This document shows positions 1 through 9,695 of a DNA stretch of 64,000 nt, piece by piece (the stretch's first letter is position 1; each line of letters begins with the position of its first letter). Under the pieces are notes generated by a model. It saw only the letters and a list, made by a program, of their open reading frames with translations. It had not been told where the DNA came from and did no database searches. Source of the DNA: Nocardioides sp. Root190 (GTDB lineage: Bacteria; Actinomycetota; Actinomycetes; Propionibacteriales; Nocardioidaceae); assembly GCF_001428565.1 (NCBI RefSeq), contig NZ_LMIA01000014.1, positions 38,951-102,950 of the forward strand, given 5' to 3'. Both the position numbers and the translations under genes were made by a program.

Positions 1-272
1 CTCGAGACCTGGTGGGTTGGTGCCGGGTCTTGCCCACAGGTAGGTGGGTGCATCGTGGCCAGGGGTCTCGAGACGGCCGCGGGCGGCCTCCTCGACCAAC
101 GGGTGAGGGGTGTCCGTTGGTCGAGGAGGTCGCGCAGCGACCGTCTCGAGACCTGGCGGGTTGGTGCCGGGTCTTGTACGGGTAGGTGGGTGCATCGTGG
201 CCAGGGGTCTCGAGACGGCCGCGGGCGGCCTCCTCGACCAACGGGGCCGCGGGCGGCCTCCTCGACCAGCGG
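1..272. repeat. REP-like imperfect direct and inverted repeats
   Basis: Two copies of a roughly 100-bp unit lie at 1-102 and 145-244, differing by a few substitutions and a short indel. A third partial copy (245-272) repeats only the GGCCGCGGGCGGCCTCCTCG end. Between the main copies, 114-152 is the reverse complement of 64-102 with few mismatches, so 64-152 can fold into a long hairpin of about 39 bp per arm. The motif pairs GGTCTCGAGACGG with CCTCCTCGACCA. It looks like a mobile intergenic palindrome of the REP/BIME kind. No coding potential is convincing here. From 273 to 396 I see only the leader of the next gene. Confidence 0.8.
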
Positions 273-408
273 CGGTGACGGCGTACGCGTACGCGCCGCT
301 CGCCAGTCCTGCGCACCTTTGCGCGTGAGCGCGGACGCGCGACGGGGCTGCGAATTCCTACCTTCGAGACATCGGCGGAACCACCGCCCGCACCCGAAGG
401 AGATCGTC

Positions 409-774
409 ATGTCGAACAAGGCAGTAGTCAGCCTGGCCACCGGGATGGAGGACCCCGAGCGGGTCACCGTCGCGTTCCTCGTCGCGCTCGGCGCGGCCGA
501 GCAGGGCCGGCCCACCTTGATGTTCCTGACCAAGGAGGCCGTCCGGCTCGCCGTCCCCGGCGTCGGCGTCGGGAAGGCCTGTGAGGGGTGTCCGCCGCTG
601 CCCGAGCTGCTCGCCCGCTACGAGGCCGCGGGCGGGAAGTACCTCGTGTGCCCCCTGTGCTTCAACGCCAAGGCGCTCGACCCGGAGAACCTGATCGGGA
701 GCGCCGAGATCGGCGGGACGATCCCGATGTGGCAGTGGATCGGTGACGAGGGCGCGACCAGCTTCAGCTACTGA
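409..774 (+). CDS. DsrE-family protein
   Basis: A protein of 121 residues with the small alpha/beta fold typical of DsrE/DsrF-like proteins, which in characterised members carry sulfur on cysteines or act as peroxiredoxin-like oligomers. It starts MSNKAVVSLATG, has a CEGCPPL motif near residue 60 and a CPLC motif near residue 84; these pairs are candidate sulfur-binding or redox cysteines. The ATG at 409 is preceded by AAGGAG at 397-402; the longer upstream frame lies in the repeats and was not used. Its stop overlaps the end of the convergent hydroxyacid dehydrogenase by 7 bp. The substrate cannot be read from sequence, but the adjacent SAM-controlled desulfurase-like gene makes a sulfur role plausible. 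Confidence 0.8.
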   Translation: MSNKAVVSLATGMEDPERVTVAFLVALGAAEQGRPTLMFLTKEAVRLAVPGVGVGKACEGCPPLPELLARYEAAGGKYLVCPLCFNAKALDPENLIGSAEIGGTIPMWQWIGDEGATSFSY

Positions 775-1727
775 TCGCGCGACATCTCGGGGATCGGCGT
801 GAGCAACGGCTCCCCGGCCAGCCAGGCCGCGAGGTTGTCGAGGGTGAGGGTCCGCATCGCGGCCCGGGTCTCCTCGGTGGCGGAGCCGACGTGGGGGAGG
901 AGCACCACGTTGTCGAGCGCGACCAGCGCCTTCGGCACGTGGGGCTCGTCCGCGAAGACGTCCAGCCCCGCGGCGCCCAGGCGTGCATCGGTGAGTGCCG
1001 CGAGGAGGGCGTCCTCGTCGACGACGGAGCCACGCGCGACGTTGACCAGGACGCCGTCCGGGCCGAGCGCGTCCAGCACCGGCCGGTCGACGAGCCCTGC
1101 TGTGGCCGGGCCTCCCGGCACGATCACGATCAGGTTGTCGACGGCGTCGGCGAGCCCGACCGCGGTCTGGTGGTAGGCGTAGGGGACACCGGGCACCTCG
1201 TGGCGGCTGTGATAGCTGACCTCGCAGCCGAGTGCCTCGAGCAGACCCGCGATGGTGCGCCCGATCCGGCCGAGTCCGAGGACGCCGACCTGGCTGCCGG
1301 AGACCTGACCGGTCAGCGGGAAGGACCCGTCCGCCCAGTGTCCGTCGCGGATGAAGCGGTCCGCGGCGACGAACCTGCGCCGGGTCGCGATCAGCAGCCC
1401 CAGCGCCGTCTCCGCGACCGCGGCGTCGAGGACGTCGGGCGTGTGGCTGACCGCGATCCCGCGGGCGAGGGCGGCGGGCACGTCGATGTTGTCGTAGCCG
1501 ACGCCCTGGTTGGCGATCATGGCGAGGTTCGGCAGTGCGGCGATCAGGTCGGCGTCGACGCGGCCGGAGTTGGAGCAGACGATCGCGACGACCTCGGAGC
1601 CGTGGGCCGTGAGGAAGTCGGCGCGCCCCTCCTCCGGCAGGTCGAGGGCGTCGTACGACGCACCGACAGCGTCGTGCAGCTGCTGGCTGAACGGGGGGAC
1701 CCGGAGGATGGTGCCGGTTCTCGTCAC
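768..1727 (-). CDS. D-isomer-specific 2-hydroxyacid dehydrogenase
   Basis: A 319-residue cytosolic NAD(P)-dependent oxidoreductase that interconverts 2-keto acids and 2-hydroxyacids. The Rossmann dinucleotide motif GLGRIG lies near residue 150. The catalytic triad is visible as Arg in NVARGSVV, Glu in FADEPHVP and His in LLPHVGSA, in the usual order. The start is GTG at 1725-1727. The gene follows the desulfurase-like gene on the same strand with 21 bp between them, so it is probably cotranscribed and under the same SAM riboswitch. The substrate (glyoxylate, hydroxypyruvate or another keto acid) is undetermined. Confidence 0.88.
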   Translation of the reverse strand: MTRTGTILRVPPFSQQLHDAVGASYDALDLPEEGRADFLTAHGSEVVAIVCSNSGRVDADLIAALPNLAMIANQGVGYDNIDVPAALARGIAVSHTPDVLDAAVAETALGLLIATRRRFVAADRFIRDGHWADGSFPLTGQVSGSQVGVLGLGRIGRTIAGLLEALGCEVSYHSRHEVPGVPYAYHQTAVGLADAVDNLIVIVPGGPATAGLVDRPVLDALGPDGVLVNVARGSVVDEDALLAALTDARLGAAGLDVFADEPHVPKALVALDNVVLLPHVGSATEETRAAMRTLTLDNLAAWLAGEPLLTPIPEMSRDQ

Positions 1728-1748: not shown

Positions 1749-3086
1749 CTACGAGCCGCAGGCTGAGGTGACGTCGGTGACCGACACCCATGCGGGCAGC
1801 TGGCGCGGGTCCGGGGTGGGCAGGTGGTCGGGGCCGTAGGTCCAGCGCGGGCCGCGGGCGACCAGGTCCTCGATCGCGTCGGCGAGGCGGTCGACGTCGT
1901 CGCTGGAGGAGCCCAGTCCGAGGCTCGCCCGAACGGCCGTGGCACCGCCGGTGAGTCGCCGGAGCAGCGGGTGCGCGCAGAAGCGGCCGTCACGCACGCC
2001 GATCCCGTGCTCGGCGGAGAGGTACTGCGCGACGAGCTCGGCGCAGTGGCCCTCGACGGTGAACGTCGCGAGGGCGAGCACGTCGACCTCCCCGCGCCAC
2101 AGCTGCAGGGTCCGGACCCCGTCGATGGCCTCCAGCCGGCCGATCAGCCGGTCGCGGAGATCCTCGTCGTGGCGCACCAGTGCGCCGTCCGGGAGAGCCG
2201 CGAGCACCTCGCAGGCAGCAGCGAGCGCGACCGCTCCGACGACATTGGGTGTCCCCGCCTCGTGGCGGGCCGGAGCAGCGCCCCACGTCACGGAGTCGGT
2301 GGTGACGTGGGTGACGGCGCCGCCGCCGGCGAGGTACGGGGGAGCGGCGTCGAGCCAGTCGCGACGTCCGACGAGCACGCCGGCGCCGTACGGCGCGAAG
2401 AGCTTGTGGCCCGAGAAGGCGAGGTAGTCGATGCCGAGCTCGGCGACGTGGATCCGGTGGTGGGGCACGAGCTGGGCGCCGTCGACGGCGATCCGGGCGC
2501 CGTGGCGGTGCGCGATCGCGACCAGCTCGGCCAACGGCAGGATCTCGCCGGTCACATTGGAGGCTCCCGTGACCGCCAGCAGCGCGGCGGGGGTCCGGGC
2601 GAGCTCGTGCTCGAGAGCCGCGAGAGTGGCGGCGACGGTGGGATGGGCGGGGACCGTACGGACCCCGTTGGCCCGCCAGGGCAGGAGATTCGCGTGGTGC
2701 TCGATGTCGAGGACGACCACGTCACCGGGCACTGCGCTCGCCAGCAGGTTCAGCGCGTCGGTGGTGTGTCGCACCACCTGGACGACGTCGTCGGGCCGGG
2801 CACCGACGAAGGCGCCGATCGTGCGGCGAGCCGTCTCGTAGGCCGCGGTGCTCACCGCAGAGGCGTACCCCGCGCCGCGGTGCACGCTCGAGTAGTGCGG
2901 AAGGAACTCGGCGACCCGGTCCGCGACCGCTTGGAGCGCGGGCGCGCTGGCGGCGATGTCGAGGTTCGCGTACGGCGTCGTCCCCCCGGTCACGAGGGGG
3001 ACCGGTGCGCCGGCGCCGACCAAGCCGGCGAGTGGGTCGATGCGGCGGGTTCGGCGAGTGCGGTCGGTGCGGGTGCCTGCGGTCAT
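1749..3086 (-). CDS. class V aminotransferase, cysteine desulfurase-like
   Basis: A 445-residue PLP enzyme of the NifS/SufS fold type. The Schiff-base lysine sits in FSGHKLFAPYG, the cofactor aspartate in VDGAQLVPHH, and a candidate catalytic cysteine in GRFCAHPLL near the C-terminus, as in group II desulfurases. Enzymes of this type remove sulfur from cysteine to form a persulfide and alanine. I chose ATG 3086 because it follows GAGGACACTCC. The longer frame would run into the riboswitch. No SufBCD or IscU partner is adjacent, so a role other than Fe-S cluster building is likely. A SAM-IV type riboswitch lies directly upstream. Confidence 0.85.
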   Translation of the reverse strand: MTAGTRTDRTRRTRRIDPLAGLVGAGAPVPLVTGGTTPYANLDIAASAPALQAVADRVAEFLPHYSSVHRGAGYASAVSTAAYETARRTIGAFVGARPDDVVQVVRHTTDALNLLASAVPGDVVVLDIEHHANLLPWRANGVRTVPAHPTVAATLAALEHELARTPAALLAVTGASNVTGEILPLAELVAIAHRHGARIAVDGAQLVPHHRIHVAELGIDYLAFSGHKLFAPYGAGVLVGRRDWLDAAPPYLAGGGAVTHVTTDSVTWGAAPARHEAGTPNVVGAVALAAACEVLAALPDGALVRHDEDLRDRLIGRLEAIDGVRTLQLWRGEVDVLALATFTVEGHCAELVAQYLSAEHGIGVRDGRFCAHPLLRRLTGGATAVRASLGLGSSSDDVDRLADAIEDLVARGPRWTYGPDHLPTPDPRQLPAWVSVTDVTSACGS

Positions 3087-3134
3087 GGAGTGTCCTCGGG
3101 TCGGGGACCCCGTGCCGGAGTCCGCGCTTGCCGA

Positions 3135-3238
3135 CCTGCGGTGCGCAGGAGGCCGTGTCCTCACCCGGGGCACCCCACCGCGGAGGAGGGTTGCCGGCCA
3201 GCAAGCCGGGGCTTCGCACTGGCACTCGTGACAGGGCC
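3135..3238 (-). promoter_or_regulatory. SAM-IV (SAM-I/IV clan) riboswitch
   Basis: Read on the minus strand, this leader contains GAGTGCCAGTGCGAAGCCCC, then CGGCTTGCTGGCCGGCAACC and GGTGGGGTGCCCCGGGTGAG, the conserved core of actinobacterial SAM-IV RNAs. The closing stem pairs GGCC-C-TGTC with GACA-C-GGCC (one C/C mismatch). A downstream hairpin, CCTGCG-CAC-CGCAGG at 3149-3135, matches the extra 3' element of the class. It ends about 50 bases before the ATG of the desulfurase-like gene. By family knowledge, SAM binding should lower expression of the downstream genes. Confidence 0.87.
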
Positions 3239-3273
3239 GAACGCTACCAGATCACTCGACAATGAGCTCCCGG

Positions 3274-4608
3274 TCAGGCGGGACGACCCACCCGCAGCAT
3301 CTCCTCGCGGCTGGCGACCTTGACCCGGGCCCGGCCGGCGGCCTCGCCGAGGGCGACCTCGTGCGCGTCGAGCAGCTCCCACGAGGTGTGCGTCGCCACG
3401 GCGACGTCACGCTCGGCGAAGTAGGCGTCCACGTCCTCGGGGCGACGCGCGGTCGCGGTCGGCACGGTGTCGGCGAGCAGGTGGCCGACGGTCTCGGCCG
3501 CGTCGCTCTTCGTGTGGCCGATCAGGCCGACCGGGCCGCGCTTGATCCAGCCGGTCACGAAGGTGCCGGGGATCGGGGTGCCATCCAGGTCGAGCACCCG
3601 GCCGCCGTCGTTCGGGATGACCGCGGCGCGGTCGTCGAAGGGGAGGCCCGGGAGGGCGGTGCTGCGGTAGCCGACGGCGCGGTAGACGCCCTGCACGTCC
3701 CAGTCGGTGAACTCGCCGGTGCCCACGACGTTGCCGTCGGCCTCGGGCGAGTGGGTGCGCTCGGTGCGCAGGCCGGTGACCCTGCCGTCGGCACCGGTGA
3801 TCTCGACCGGCGCCTCGGCGAAGTGCAGGTGGATCCGGTGGTCCTTGCCCACCGGGTCGGCACCGACCCAGCTGGTCAGGGTGTTGAGCACCATCTTCTG
3901 CGCCTTGTGCTGCGCGATGTGCTCCATGCCGTGCTCGTCCACGTCGAAGCCCTCCGGGTGCACGATCACCTCGACGTTGGGCGAGTGGTTGAGCTCTCGC
4001 AGCTCCAGCGGCGAGAACTTCGCGTACGCCGGGCCGCGGCGGGCGAAGACGTGCACGTCGGTGATCGTCTTGGCCTGCAGGCCCTCGTGCACGTGGGCGG
4101 GAATGTCGGTCACCAGCATCTCGTCGCCGGTCTTGGCGAGGACCCGGGCGACGTCGAGCGCCACGTTGCCGACGCCCACGACGGCCACGCTGGTCGCGTC
4201 GAGGGGCCAGGTGGTGGGGGCGTCGGGGTGGGCGTCGTACCAGGACACGAAGTCGGCGGCGCCGTACGACAGCTCCTCGCCGGGGATGCCGAGATCGCGG
4301 TCGGCCATCGCGCCGGTCGAGATCACGACGGCGTCGTAGAACTCGCGGAGGTCCTCGAGCTTCACGTCGACGCCGTACTCGACGTTGCCGAGGAAGCGGA
4401 CCTCGGGCTTCTCCAGCACGCGGTGGAGCGCCTTGATGATCTCCTTGATGCGGGGGTGGTCCGGAGCGACGCCGTACCGAACGAGCCCGAAGGGCGCCGG
4501 CAGGCGCTCGAGGATGTCGACGGAGACGTCGACGTCCGACTTGGTCAGGATGTCGGCCGCGTAGATGCCAGCCGGTCCGCCGCCCACGATCGCAACACGA
4601 AGAGTCAT
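3274..4608 (-). CDS. fprA: ferredoxin/adrenodoxin--NADP+ reductase (FprA-like)
   Basis: A 444-residue FAD flavoprotein close in length and motifs to mycobacterial FprA (about 456 residues). It moves electrons between NADPH and ferredoxins serving cytochromes P450 or other redox enzymes. The FAD motif GGGPAGIYAA lies at residues 8-17, followed by PAPFGLVRYGVAPDHP, typical of the family. A second dinucleotide site is GVGNVALDVARV near residue 150, and GWIKRGPVGLIGHTK near the C-terminus is the conserved FAD-pyrophosphate segment. The start is ATG 4608. It is divergent from the LysR gene with 76 bp between, and its stop lies 36 bp before the riboswitch of the next operon. Confidence 0.9.
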   Translation of the reverse strand: MTLRVAIVGGGPAGIYAADILTKSDVDVSVDILERLPAPFGLVRYGVAPDHPRIKEIIKALHRVLEKPEVRFLGNVEYGVDVKLEDLREFYDAVVISTGAMADRDLGIPGEELSYGAADFVSWYDAHPDAPTTWPLDATSVAVVGVGNVALDVARVLAKTGDEMLVTDIPAHVHEGLQAKTITDVHVFARRGPAYAKFSPLELRELNHSPNVEVIVHPEGFDVDEHGMEHIAQHKAQKMVLNTLTSWVGADPVGKDHRIHLHFAEAPVEITGADGRVTGLRTERTHSPEADGNVVGTGEFTDWDVQGVYRAVGYRSTALPGLPFDDRAAVIPNDGGRVLDLDGTPIPGTFVTGWIKRGPVGLIGHTKSDAAETVGHLLADTVPTATARRPEDVDAYFAERDVAVATHTSWELLDAHEVALGEAAGRARVKVASREEMLRVGRPA

Positions 4609-5633: not shown

Positions 5634-6530
5634 TCAGGTGTGGGCGGGGTGGCGCGCCGAGAGCCGGGCGATCGAGTCGTCGGTGCAGTCGGCCCAGAAG
5701 CCGCCGATCACGTCCTCGATCTGGGTGAAGGAGTCCGCGACGTAGAGGACGTCCTGGTAGTCGGTGATGTCGTAGACCTGACTGCCCATCTCGCCGATGT
5801 CGAGGGGGCGGATGGTCATCCCGCGGAACGCCTCGATCTCGCCGGGGGAGGAGAGGATGCCGGCGCCGTACGCCTTGAGGTCGCCTGCTTCCCAGAGGAT
5901 CCCGAACTCGAGGGTGAACCAGAAGACCTTGCTGATGAACTCCAGCGCCTCGGTGGTGCGGACCCGGCGAGAGGCCTGGCCGGCGAGCTCGTAGAGGGCC
6001 GTGAAGCGCGGGTTGGCGAGGGTGTTTCCGTGGCCGACGACCTCGTGGAGGACGTCCGGCTCGGGGGTGTAGAGCGGCACGGAGTGGTGGCGGACGTACT
6101 GCGTCGACCAGAAGCCCTTGTCGGCGAGCGAGCCGTAGAAGTCGCGGAGCGGCACGAGGCCGGCGGCGGGCTGGTAGCGGTAGCCGGTCAGGGGGCGCAG
6201 CCACTCGCTGACCTCGGCCAGCTGCGGGATGTGGTCGATCGGCAGCTCGAGGGACTCCTTGCCGTCGAGGAACTCGCGGCAGGCGTGGGCGCGGTGCTTG
6301 GTCACCAGCGCCTCGCTGACCACGCGCCACACGCGGTGCTCGGCATCGGTGTACTCCGCGAGCGGAGCCGGCGTGCCGGGCCGCCAGTTGCTCGCGAGGG
6401 TGGCGAGGGCGTCGCGCCGGGCGCGGTACGCCGGGTCGGCGAAGCCTGGGTGGTCGTCGCCCAGGTGCACCTTGAGGGATCCGTCCTCGTCGGCGGTGAC
6501 CGGGGCGAAGTGCTGCGCTTCCTCGAACAT
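5634..6530 (-). CDS. phhA: phenylalanine 4-monooxygenase
   Basis: A 298-residue single-domain aromatic amino acid hydroxylase, the usual length of bacterial enzymes that convert phenylalanine to tyrosine with tetrahydropterin and O2. The non-haem iron ligands are visible as H162 and H167 in HEVVGH and E208 in FTLEFG. The conserved SADKGFWSTQYVRH-like region and PEPDVLHEV precede them. The start is the ATG at 6530; longer frames upstream enter the divergent promoter region. No pterin carbinolamine dehydratase gene is adjacent. The divergent Lrp/AsnC gene is a likely regulator, typical for phenylalanine catabolism loci. Confidence 0.93.
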   Translation of the reverse strand: MFEEAQHFAPVTADEDGSLKVHLGDDHPGFADPAYRARRDALATLASNWRPGTPAPLAEYTDAEHRVWRVVSEALVTKHRAHACREFLDGKESLELPIDHIPQLAEVSEWLRPLTGYRYQPAAGLVPLRDFYGSLADKGFWSTQYVRHHSVPLYTPEPDVLHEVVGHGNTLANPRFTALYELAGQASRRVRTTEALEFISKVFWFTLEFGILWEAGDLKAYGAGILSSPGEIEAFRGMTIRPLDIGEMGSQVYDITDYQDVLYVADSFTQIEDVIGGFWADCTDDSIARLSARHPAHT

Positions 6531-6548
6531 GGCCCAAGTCTGTGATCT

Positions 6549-6595
6549 GGTCCACCGAATTGCCAGCATCCTCAGACGAATGGCTCCGGTGGACC
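6549..6595. promoter_or_regulatory. widely spaced dyad between phhA and the Lrp gene
   Basis: GGTCCACCG at 6549-6557 and CGGTGGACC at 6587-6595 form a perfect 9-bp inverted repeat with centres 38 bp apart, close to a whole number of helical turns. GCCA and TGGC lie inside it. Lrp/AsnC proteins bind such phased dyads as octamers, so this is a good candidate operator controlling both divergent genes. Confidence 0.6.
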
Positions 6596-6620
6596 CGACC
6601 TGAGTGGCAGACTGTCCGAC

Positions 6621-7052
6621 ATGGATGCGACCGACCGTGCAATTCTGGACGTCCTGCGCACCGATGCCCGGACCTCGATCCGGGACGTCGCCACCCAGGT
6701 CGGAGTCAGCCGGGCGAGTGCCTACGCGCGGGTGAAGCGGATGACCGACGCCAAGGTGATCCGCAGGTTCACCATCGACGTCGACCACGTCGCGCTGGGG
6801 CTCGGGCTGGCGGCGTACGTCCACGTCCGGACCAAGCAGAACTCGTGGAAGTCATTCCGCAAGAAGGTCTGGGAGCTGGAGGAGGCTGCGCACGTCGCCC
6901 TCGTCACCGGCGACTTCGACTGCGTGATCCTGGTGCGGGCCCGCGACGCCGACCACCTGCGCGAGCTCGTGCTGGAGCGGATCCAGTCGTTGCCCGAGGT
7001 CGTCGCGACCCAGACGGTGCTGGTGTTCGAGGAGCACGTCGGTCCGTCCTGA
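6621..7052 (+). CDS. Lrp/AsnC-family transcriptional regulator
   Basis: A 143-residue feast/famine regulator of standard length. It starts MDATDRAILDVLRTDARTSI, the conserved AsnC-type helix-turn-helix, with the recognition helix in GVSRASAYARVKRM. The RAM/effector domain covers about residues 65-143 and contains TGDFDCVILVRARD, matching the family GxxD pattern that binds amino acids. It lies divergent to phhA with 90 bp between them, so it probably senses phenylalanine or a related amino acid and controls phhA. The downstream SDR has its own promoter. Confidence 0.92.
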   Translation: MDATDRAILDVLRTDARTSIRDVATQVGVSRASAYARVKRMTDAKVIRRFTIDVDHVALGLGLAAYVHVRTKQNSWKSFRKKVWELEEAAHVALVTGDFDCVILVRARDADHLRELVLERIQSLPEVVATQTVLVFEEHVGPS

Positions 7053-7096: not shown

Positions 7097-7909
7097 GTGG
7101 ACAGACTCGACGGACGTGTTGCTGTGGTGACCGGTGCGGGCAGCGGCATCGGTCGGGTGACGGCGCGCCGGTTGGCGGCGAAGGGCTGCGACGTCGCGCT
7201 CGTCGACCTCCGACCCGACGGGCTCGAGGAGACGGCACGGCTGGTCCGCGCCGAGGGGCGCCTGGCAAGCACCCACCTCGCCGACGTGTCGGACGCCGAG
7301 CGGATGGCTGCCCTGCCCGAGGAGGTGCTCGCCCTCCACGATGCCGTGCACGTCCTGGTCAACAACGCCGGAGTGACCTCGGTCGGTCCCTTCGCCGACG
7401 AGCGGCTCGAGGACATCCGTCTCCTGGTCGACGTCAACATCTGGGGCGTCGTTCACGGGTGCCGCACCTTCCTCCCCGTGCTGCGCGAGCAGGAGGAGGC
7501 CCACATCGTCAACGTGTCCAGCATCGCCGGGCTGCTCGGACTGCCGCACACGGCGACGTACGCGCTCACCAAGGGCGCGGTGAAGGCGTTCTCGGAGGCC
7601 TTGCGTGGCGAGCTCGCGGGGACCACGGTCGGTGTCAGCGTTATCTACCCCGGCACCCACCGCACCGCGATCGCCGCCACCGCGCGAGGCTCCGACGGCG
7701 CCCGCGTCGCGAAGCTGTCCCAGGGCCGGCTGGGCGTGCTGATGCCGCCGCCCTCGCTCGTCGCCCGCCGGATCGTCAAGGCGATCGAGAAGGACCAGGC
7801 CCGCGCCGTCGTCGGACCCGACGCCCGCGTGATCGACCTGGCCTCCCGGATCGCTCCCGGCCGCACCCGGTTGATCGGTCGGGTCACCGGGAGGCTGTCG
7901 GGTCACTGA
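7097..7909 (+). CDS. SDR-family oxidoreductase
   Basis: A classical short-chain dehydrogenase of 270 residues. The NAD(P) motif TGAGSGIG is near residue 12, NNAG near residue 90, the catalytic Ser lies in NVSSIAG, and YALTKGA supplies the Tyr and Lys (YxxxK). The start is probably GTG 7097, which gives the usual SDR opening (VDRLDGRVAVVTGAG). An in-frame GTG at 7088 is the alternative. A KstR-like site overlaps its promoter, suggesting control by a sterol/lipid-responsive TetR regulator. The exact substrate is unknown; the long C-terminal tail with RIVKAIEKDQARAVVGPD is common in lipid-active members. Confidence 0.88.
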   Translation: MDRLDGRVAVVTGAGSGIGRVTARRLAAKGCDVALVDLRPDGLEETARLVRAEGRLASTHLADVSDAERMAALPEEVLALHDAVHVLVNNAGVTSVGPFADERLEDIRLLVDVNIWGVVHGCRTFLPVLREQEEAHIVNVSSIAGLLGLPHTATYALTKGAVKAFSEALRGELAGTTVGVSVIYPGTHRTAIAATARGSDGARVAKLSQGRLGVLMPPPSLVARRIVKAIEKDQARAVVGPDARVIDLASRIAPGRTRLIGRVTGRLSGH

Positions 7910-9338: not shown

Positions 9339-9695
9339 ATGCGTCGAACCCTTGACCGCCTCCAGGCGGCTCGCCGCGAGGACCGCGGTTTCACCCTCAT
9401 CGAGCTCCTGATCGTCATCATCATCCTCGGCGTGCTCGCCGCGGTCGTGGTCTTCTCCGTGCGTGGCATCACTGACAACGGCGAGACGGCTGCTTGCCGG
9501 ACCGAGATTCGCACTGTGGAGACCGCCATCGAGGCGTACTACGCCGAGAACAACGACTACCCGGCCACCGTCGGCGACCTCGTCGGTGGCGCTGAGGGCT
9601 TCCTCCGCGAGGACCCGTCGGGCGCTTCCAGCATCGACCCGGCGGACACGATCAGCGCCACGACCGGCGAGATCACGCCGGCTCCCACCTGCTGA
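9339..9695 (+). CDS. pilA: type IV major pilin (PilA-like)
   Basis: A 118-residue type IVa pilin. The leader is 17 residues and positively charged; cleavage is predicted between G17 and F18 in RGFTLIELL, with the invariant Glu at mature position 5 (E22). A single hydrophobic helix covers residues 18-41. The two remaining cysteines, C53 and the C-terminal C118, could form a disulfide like the D-region of Gram-negative pilins. The short globular domain includes AYYAENNDYPATVGDL, common in small pilins. The ATG at 9339 follows AGAGG at 9326-9330. It is first in the pilus gene cluster and followed by a strong hairpin. Confidence 0.93.
   Translation: MRRTLDRLQAARREDRGFTLIELLIVIIILGVLAAVVVFSVRGITDNGETAACRTEIRTVETAIEAYYAENNDYPATVGDLVGGAEGFLREDPSGASSIDPADTISATTGEITPAPTC

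Follow-up and report, generated by a model that had tools for sequence, protein, structure and literature searches.

The window, i.e., the whole 64,000-nt stretch of Nocardioides sp. Root190 DNA analyzed here, carries on its minus strand a SAM-IV riboswitch, followed at a distance of 32 nt by the ATG codon of a gene encoding a cysteine desulfurase-like protein. Behind this gene lies that of a D-2-hydroxyacid dehydrogenase, probably co-transcribed with it in the window, and a DsrE-like gene converges on the two (Table 1). All three genes had been named in an earlier note on this DNA, and all three are present.

Table 1. Features of the riboswitch locus, in window coordinates.
Feature	Position	Strand	Basis
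DsrE/DsrF-like protein, convergent	409..774	+	PF02635, 25.1 bits vs. cut-off 22.7
D-2-hydroxyacid dehydrogenase, GTG start, 21 nt behind the desulfurase gene	768..1727	-	PF02826/PF00389
SufS-like (group II) cysteine desulfurase-like protein, 445 aa, C-terminal extension ending ACGS	1749..3086	-	PF00266, fold, residues
Shine-Dalgarno-like GAGGAC	3092..3097	-	sequence
Hairpin directly 3' of the aptamer, GGACUCC (3123-3117) / GGGGUCC (3111-3105)	3105..3123	-	pairing kept through sequence change
SAM-IV riboswitch aptamer (RF00634)	3119..3233	-	cmscan, 103 bits
PK-2 3' strand CGCGGA, complementary to P3-loop UCCGCG	3121..3126	-	sequence and PK-2 layout in the available part of PMC6890682
Putative -10 box TAGCGT (TANNNT), ends 7 nt before the aptamer	3241..3246	-	sequence and count over relatives
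FAD/NAD(P) oxidoreductase, upstream gene, ends 40 nt before the aptamer	3274..4608	-	

The class of the riboswitch, as proposed in the earlier note, was borne out by a cmscan search of the whole window against all Rfam families, in which SAM-IV was the sole match above any gathering score. The match (3233..3119, minus strand) is full length, covering model positions 1-116 of 116 without being cut off, and reaches 103 bits against a gathering score of 38 (E 8.2e-18). The same 103 bits were obtained in a search of the 5.0-Mb genome of the strain, which found no second SAM-IV copy. The published SAM-IV structure comprises five helices and two pseudoknots, of which PK-2 is made by the 3' end, according to the available part of that report (PMC6890682). 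By inspection, both PK-2 strands are readable in the window, 5'-UCCGCG-3' in the P3 loop and 5'-CGCGGA-3' in the tail, giving six pairs. The interval previously assigned to the riboswitch (3135-3238, with no strand named) falls on the right element but omits its last 16 nt (3134-3119), which hold the 3' strand of PK-2. The element is an ordinary, complete SAM-IV riboswitch and, judging from its sequence, would bind SAM and control the gene behind it.

The oxidoreductase gene upstream lies on the same strand as the aptamer and ends only 40 nt before it, so the presence of a separate promoter needed checking. A scan of the region with the sigma-70 consensus found no promoter; the candidate box came from counting over relatives. 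Of 141 distinct SAM-IV upstream stretches (those left after eight near-duplicate named loci had been excluded by hand, and then identical stretches), 68 have a TANNNT box ending 5-9 nt before the aptamer, compared with 0, 0, 0, 1, 2, and 0 in control windows of equal width placed further upstream. The recurrence of the box at this distance across relatives indicates that the leader most likely begins with the aptamer, and the transcript in the window probably starts at the aptamer's 5' edge, from a promoter of its own.

The leader continues with a hairpin, whose 5' strand shares 3 nt with the PK-2 strand. In a swapped-partner test, which like the folding test described below used 96 distinct enzyme leaders of 36-120 nt, the hairpin's own partner paired better than swapped ones in 30 of 36 sequence types. 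For the comparison with shuffled sequences, 6 of 153 leaders without a recognizable tail or start were left out, then duplicates, which left 140; the mean z was -1.5 (103 leaders), and in 40 leaders at most 5 of 100 shuffles were as good. The window's own hairpin does not beat its shuffles (19 of 100 as good). Folding gave no support to a translational switch in which the hairpin competes with masking of the ribosome site, its partner strand being released for that masking once PK-2 forms: with the PK-2 strand blocked, mean accessibility of the ribosome site was 0.342 vs. 0.342 (96 leaders, 29 of them showing a decrease and 32 an increase), while blocking other stretches instead changed it by +0.036 on average. 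Complementarity between the partner region and the ribosome site is weak (mean z -0.73, 102 leaders). Positions 2950-3450 were searched for a canonical intrinsic terminator and none was found. For Streptomyces clavuligerus, the part of the account available records a premature transcript from a SAM-IV riboswitch that stands ahead of a gene for a class V-fold PLP enzyme (PMC8269248); this points to transcriptional control there.

The gene behind the riboswitch encodes a class V PLP protein (PF00266, 268.6 bits), whose best curated family is SufS (TIGR01979). With 284.1 bits the protein stays under the cut-off of this family (475.1), as does a distant member (249.2 bits); the strain's other SufS, to which it is 34% identical, scores above it (527.6 bits). 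The AlphaFold model has a mean pLDDT of 93.7, and within its C-terminal extension only the last four residues fall below 50. Residues ~15-416 match the fold of SufS 4w91_G (Z 47.8, rmsd 1.8, 384 aligned), and every one of the 50 best fold matches listed is a SufS/CsdB-type enzyme or a relative, either a cysteine desulfurase or a selenocysteine lyase. The protein was aligned with 120 relatives of at least 44% identity over more than 300 residues, giving 121 rows, 116 of them distinct (five genes are present twice, from two collections). Lys228, Cys370, His130, His131, Arg365, and Arg386 are invariant in all 121 rows and occur also in four SufS rows. The catalytic roles of these Lys, Cys, His, and Arg positions were taken over from Escherichia coli SufS.

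The subfamily also has features of its own. The HHC of the four SufS rows, beside the catalytic Cys, is replaced by [RK]FC in 114 of the 121 rows, and position 390 is Gly in every row, compared with Tyr in those SufS rows. A Cys lies no more than 12 residues from the C-terminus in 101 of 121 rows (97 of the 116 distinct ones). The idea that this tail Cys is essential was rejected, since 20 rows have no Cys in the last 12 residues; three of these 20 carry one further in. The missed SufS cut-off, the changed motif beside the catalytic Cys and the Gly for Tyr at position 390 could indicate that the protein is not a desulfurase and catalyzes another class V reaction of sulfur amino acid metabolism (as a C-S lyase or a methionine-salvage aminotransferase). 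This we regard as very improbable, in view of the invariance of the catalytic Cys, both His, the Lys, and both Arg in 121 of 121 rows and of the SufS/CsdB character of the 50 best fold matches listed. By sequence and model, the protein appears to represent a subfamily of group II (SufS-type) cysteine desulfurases and would have desulfurase activity, which agrees with what had been noted for the first gene behind the riboswitch.

In the earlier note, the desulfurase and 2-hydroxyacid dehydrogenase genes, with the DsrE-like gene converging on them, were taken to imply SAM-repressed sulfur mobilization or a salvage pathway. The first two genes indeed lie on the same strand, 21 nt apart. However, the surroundings of the enzyme in relatives speak against a common pathway: 34 other same-family stretches were inspected, nine of which lack the enzyme, and in none of the 25 that carry it does a homologue of the dehydrogenase or of the DsrE-like protein (E up to 1e-8) lie beside it. 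Being unconserved, neither neighbor informs about a conserved pathway, and we give almost no credence to a single pathway formed by the riboswitch, the desulfurase and the 2-hydroxyacid dehydrogenase, with or without DsrE. Nothing was found pointing to a salvage pathway, the salvage genes themselves lying outside the searches.

Several other neighbors were recorded. An SDF-family symporter gene adjoins or lies near the desulfurase gene in 10 of 35 same-family stretches (L040, L041, L042, L045, L047, L048, L050, L051, L052, and L059); PF00375 was tested on L042, and weaker NCBIfam matches were obtained for L040, L045, L048, and L059. The SDF family includes cystine carriers, and a cystine carrier beside the desulfurase would fit a cysteine-using enzyme. 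In 23 loci of L075-L154, mostly from Rhodococcus, the desulfurase gene is followed on the same strand by a gene for a short protein (~170-240 aa), which weakly resembles part of luciferase-like monooxygenases. Elsewhere in the window, a ~120-base stretch (ctcgagacctgg...cctcctcgacc) is present, by eye, in near-identical direct copies at the left edge (1-260) and looks like an intergenic repeat, and at 5634-7052 a phenylalanine 4-monooxygenase gene (minus strand, NF008877 over cut-off) stands beside a divergent Lrp/AsnC-like regulator gene (plus strand, by reading only).

Pairing of SAM-IV with the enzyme recurs throughout the relatives. Within the genus, the enzyme is encoded in 17 of 118 genomes (at least 56% identity) and absent from 101; SAM-IV precedes it in 14 of the 17, Root190 included, and three have it without the riboswitch. 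Among 149 genomes of the family, 18 contain SAM-IV, at 19 sites, 10 of which lie by the enzyme. In the 80 best loci from named records, ranging from Rhodococcus to Cellulomonas, SAM-IV lies directly upstream of the enzyme in 78 (two are without it), a share that leans high, the loci being the best matches of a longer list obtained with a query from relatives of the window and thus tending to be close ones. A sample of 296 genomes of the class comprises 188 with SAM-IV, 115 with the enzyme (at a chosen threshold of E 1e-65 or better; two matches, in G249 and G322, are less than 45% identical) and 106 with both.

Published SAM-IV targets include methionine genes: in the available parts of the papers, SAM-IV is said to regulate metXY in Actinomycetales (PMC4239095) and O-acetylhomoserine sulfhydrylase in Mycobacterium avium (PMC3774663). 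In our set of 61 SAM-IV sites (60 stretches), picked among the best matches listed in the class sample with a preference for high scores and multi-site genomes, (i) 25 precede the enzyme, (ii) 30 precede metY, metX, or metZ, and (iii) six precede other or unassigned genes, namely ABC transporters (amino acid, sulfonate-like, peptide), a luciferase-like monooxygenase and one unassigned gene. Both the enzyme and met genes are targets in 12 of the 13 genomes with at least two fetched sites. In this chosen set the enzyme and the met genes make up the two most frequent kinds of target; the remark in the earlier note that the riboswitch heads something other than the usual methionine synthesis genes does not hold as an oddity.

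Some other SAM-IV arrangements were encountered. In G095, of the same family, the riboswitch (L005, 1501-1619) precedes a nitrite/sulfite reductase-like gene (1-1224, minus strand; PF01077, PF03460). A Frankiales MAG (L086) has three SAM-IV matches within ~5 kb, at 2654-2767 (-), 4116-4225 (+), and 7789-7901 (+), one preceding an ABC-permease-like gene and another the desulfurase gene. In Nakamurella leprariae (L083), a second SAM-IV riboswitch, located behind the desulfurase gene (9508-9619, plus strand), precedes a luciferase-like monooxygenase gene.

What the enzyme is used for was approached through the company it keeps. A role as a substitute for sulfate assimilation was rejected within the genus, because an APS/PAPS-reductase-like gene (E 1e-30 or better) is present in 117 of its 118 genomes, Root190 included; the curated cut-off of the APS/PAPS-reductase family is passed in only three of the 118. 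Given its SufS fold and residues, the enzyme might be a second desulfurase that supplies sulfur to Fe-S clusters or to thio-cofactors (lipoate or thiamine), with SAM signaling the demand of radical-SAM enzymes. In eight loci of the genus (L061-L066, L071, L073) the desulfurase gene is followed, 37-94 nt on and in the same orientation, by a gene for a lipoate-protein-ligase-like protein, which fits a thio-cofactor role as well as, or better than, a role in methionine synthesis; this neighbor raised our estimate of the cofactor role and lowered our confidence in the methionine one. The S. lividans gene behind SAM-IV was placed under thiamine metabolism, in the part of the report available (PMC8079986). 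On the other hand, the strain has another SufS that passes the family cut-off (527.6 vs. 475.1 bits), the ligase neighbor is found in these eight related loci only, and the chosen SAM-IV sites that remain when those of the enzyme are set aside mostly precede methionine genes (30 of 36), so a cofactor role seems quite improbable. A HemQ gene follows the desulfurase gene in two further loci of the genus, which likewise speaks against a role in methionine synthesis.

In Streptomyces, a MetM/MetO route, reportedly described by Hasebe et al. in 2024, is said to form homocysteine from O-phosphohomoserine and a thiocarboxylated carrier. The metM gene of Streptomyces albulus has an upstream SAM riboswitch, as stated in the available part of a paper that cites the MetM/MetO work (PMC12172450). 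No sulfur donor of this route was found in the portions of the open-licence literature searched. Outside the window, the Root190 genome contains a SAM-I riboswitch (G000:C8:494442-494589; 67.6 bits vs. a gathering score of 44.4), followed by a threonine-synthase-like (metM-like) gene (L233:1601-2872) and a ThiS-like carrier gene (2904-3182) ending GGC; the same order of SAM-I, metM-like gene and ThiS-like carrier gene was seen in nine of nine genomes inspected. The metM-like protein is over the cut-off of TIGR00260 (threonine synthase), and no MetM model is among its matches; by resemblance, the SAM-I-headed pair (G000:C8:494442-495868) is a probable metM-metO pair. The genome also encodes MoeZ (NF005902, 650.2 bits vs. 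cut-off 647), with E1 (PF00899) and rhodanese (PF00581) domains, and metY and metX, located together and both over their family cut-offs.

Every one of the 115 enzyme-bearing genomes of the class has MetY, MetZ, or a MetM-like protein, the term "MetM-like" here meaning similarity to one protein at a chosen E of 1e-90 or better, which may include threonine synthases: 55 have the MetM-like protein only, 19 MetY/MetZ only, 41 both, and none neither. Among the 181 genomes without the enzyme, nine have neither route (Fisher p 0.014), a state that is rare anyway. The MetM-like protein is commoner with the enzyme (96/115) than without it (97/181; odds ratio 4.4, p 1e-7, phylogeny ignored), whereas MetY/MetZ are slightly anti-correlated with it (60/115 vs. 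121/181, p 0.014, phylogeny ignored). Of the 193 genomes with the MetM-like protein, 97 lack the enzyme, so other sulfur donors must suffice in those.

These counts bear on a further possibility, that the sulfide or persulfide which the enzyme releases from cysteine is used by MetY/MetZ alone, in direct sulfhydrylation, with MetM/MetO uninvolved. It is suggested by metYX, metX, and metZ being the other main SAM-IV targets, by the metY-metX pair of the strain itself, and by 14 of the 80 named loci, many of them from Cellulomonas and relatives, in which the opposite strand carries a metZ-like gene no more than ~5 kb from the enzyme (the one member of this group that was tested is over the O-succinylhomoserine sulfhydrylase cut-off). 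However, 55 of the 115 enzyme genomes, mostly of three families (20 of f20, 17 of f18, and 9 of f21), are without MetY and MetZ over cut-off, and all 55 have the MetM-like protein; as the only partners of the enzyme, MetY/MetZ were rejected as a general rule. Since the enzyme does not track MetY/MetZ, it does not appear to serve those sulfhydrylases only, and we consider this explanation unlikely.

The reading that we prefer, with a probability of about 0.58, is that of a SAM-repressed cysteine desulfurase that feeds sulfur to homocysteine synthesis and hence to methionine and SAM, with MoeZ as the likely receiver. It builds on what was computed for the aptamer and promoter box, the pairing of SAM-IV with the subfamily, the active site and fold, the homocysteine-synthase-like company and the MetM/MetO/MoeZ-like genes. 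The SAM-IV riboswitch would sense SAM and repress the desulfurase gene behind it; at low SAM the enzyme would be made, draw sulfur off cysteine to form a persulfide at Cys370, and hand that sulfur over. In Root190 the likely receiver would be MoeZ, with its E1 and rhodanese parts, which could turn the MetO-like carrier into the thiocarboxylate that the MetM-like enzyme would use, carrier and enzyme both being encoded behind SAM-I; MetY would be a second possible receiver. The desulfurase is proposed as the donor for MetM/MetO because both operons would be under SAM control. SAM-repressed sulfur mobilization, as suggested in the earlier note, would accordingly be the most likely role; that the leader binds SAM, that SAM lowers expression, that the protein is an active desulfurase, and which acceptor takes the sulfur are its predicted elements.

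A bolder version of the preferred reading, which we put forward tentatively and think somewhat doubtful, is that actinomycetes possess a methionine-dedicated cysteine desulfurase and that, in genomes such as that of Root190, both ends of the relay are under SAM, through SAM-I on metM/metO and SAM-IV on the donor, the persulfide passing to MoeZ and MetO, perhaps via the near-terminal Cys as a mobile arm. If true, the methionine role would assign a function to an enzyme that is widespread in the class (115 of 296 genomes sampled) and for which the accessible portions of the literature found give no more than an annotation, cysteine desulfurase or class V-fold PLP enzyme; it would name a candidate sulfur donor for the MetM/MetO homocysteine route and explain why a cysteine desulfurase stands under a SAM riboswitch. 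The riboswitch class and its pairing with such an enzyme were already known; new is a reasoned, testable role for the enzyme. In the available parts of the open-licence literature, no paper was found to connect the desulfurase behind SAM-IV to the MetM/MetO route.

Compared with known systems, the aptamer is like SAM-IV RF00634 in its full-length match and in both readable PK-2 strands and has no notable differences, while the conserved hairpin of the window leader overlaps the PK-2 strand. The enzyme has the fold (Z up to 47.8) and active-site residues of the group II desulfurases SufS/CsdB and differs from them in [RK]FC for HHC, in its C-terminal extension and in a score under the SufS cut-off. 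With the MetM/MetO route of Streptomyces, the Root190 genome has in common the SAM-I riboswitch and the threonine-synthase-like and ThiS-like genes, whose function in this strain is suggested by resemblance only. The protein repressor MetJ uses SAM as corepressor. In Vibrionales, MetJ is predicted to control the cysteine desulfurase gene csd, according to the part of the report available (PMC4239095), so that there too a methionine regulator would act on a cysteine desulfurase, through a protein and in unrelated bacteria, which speaks for the reading preferred here. The closest precedents are the SAM-IV riboswitches upstream of the cysteine desulfurase SLIV_26975 of S. lividans (PMC8079986) and of the class V-fold PLP enzyme CRV15_21540 of S. 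clavuligerus (PMC8269248); they share with the window the riboswitch class before a like enzyme, likened here by annotation and not by sequence, and the available parts of both accounts annotate the pairing without a link to homocysteine synthesis, which is the link proposed for it here.
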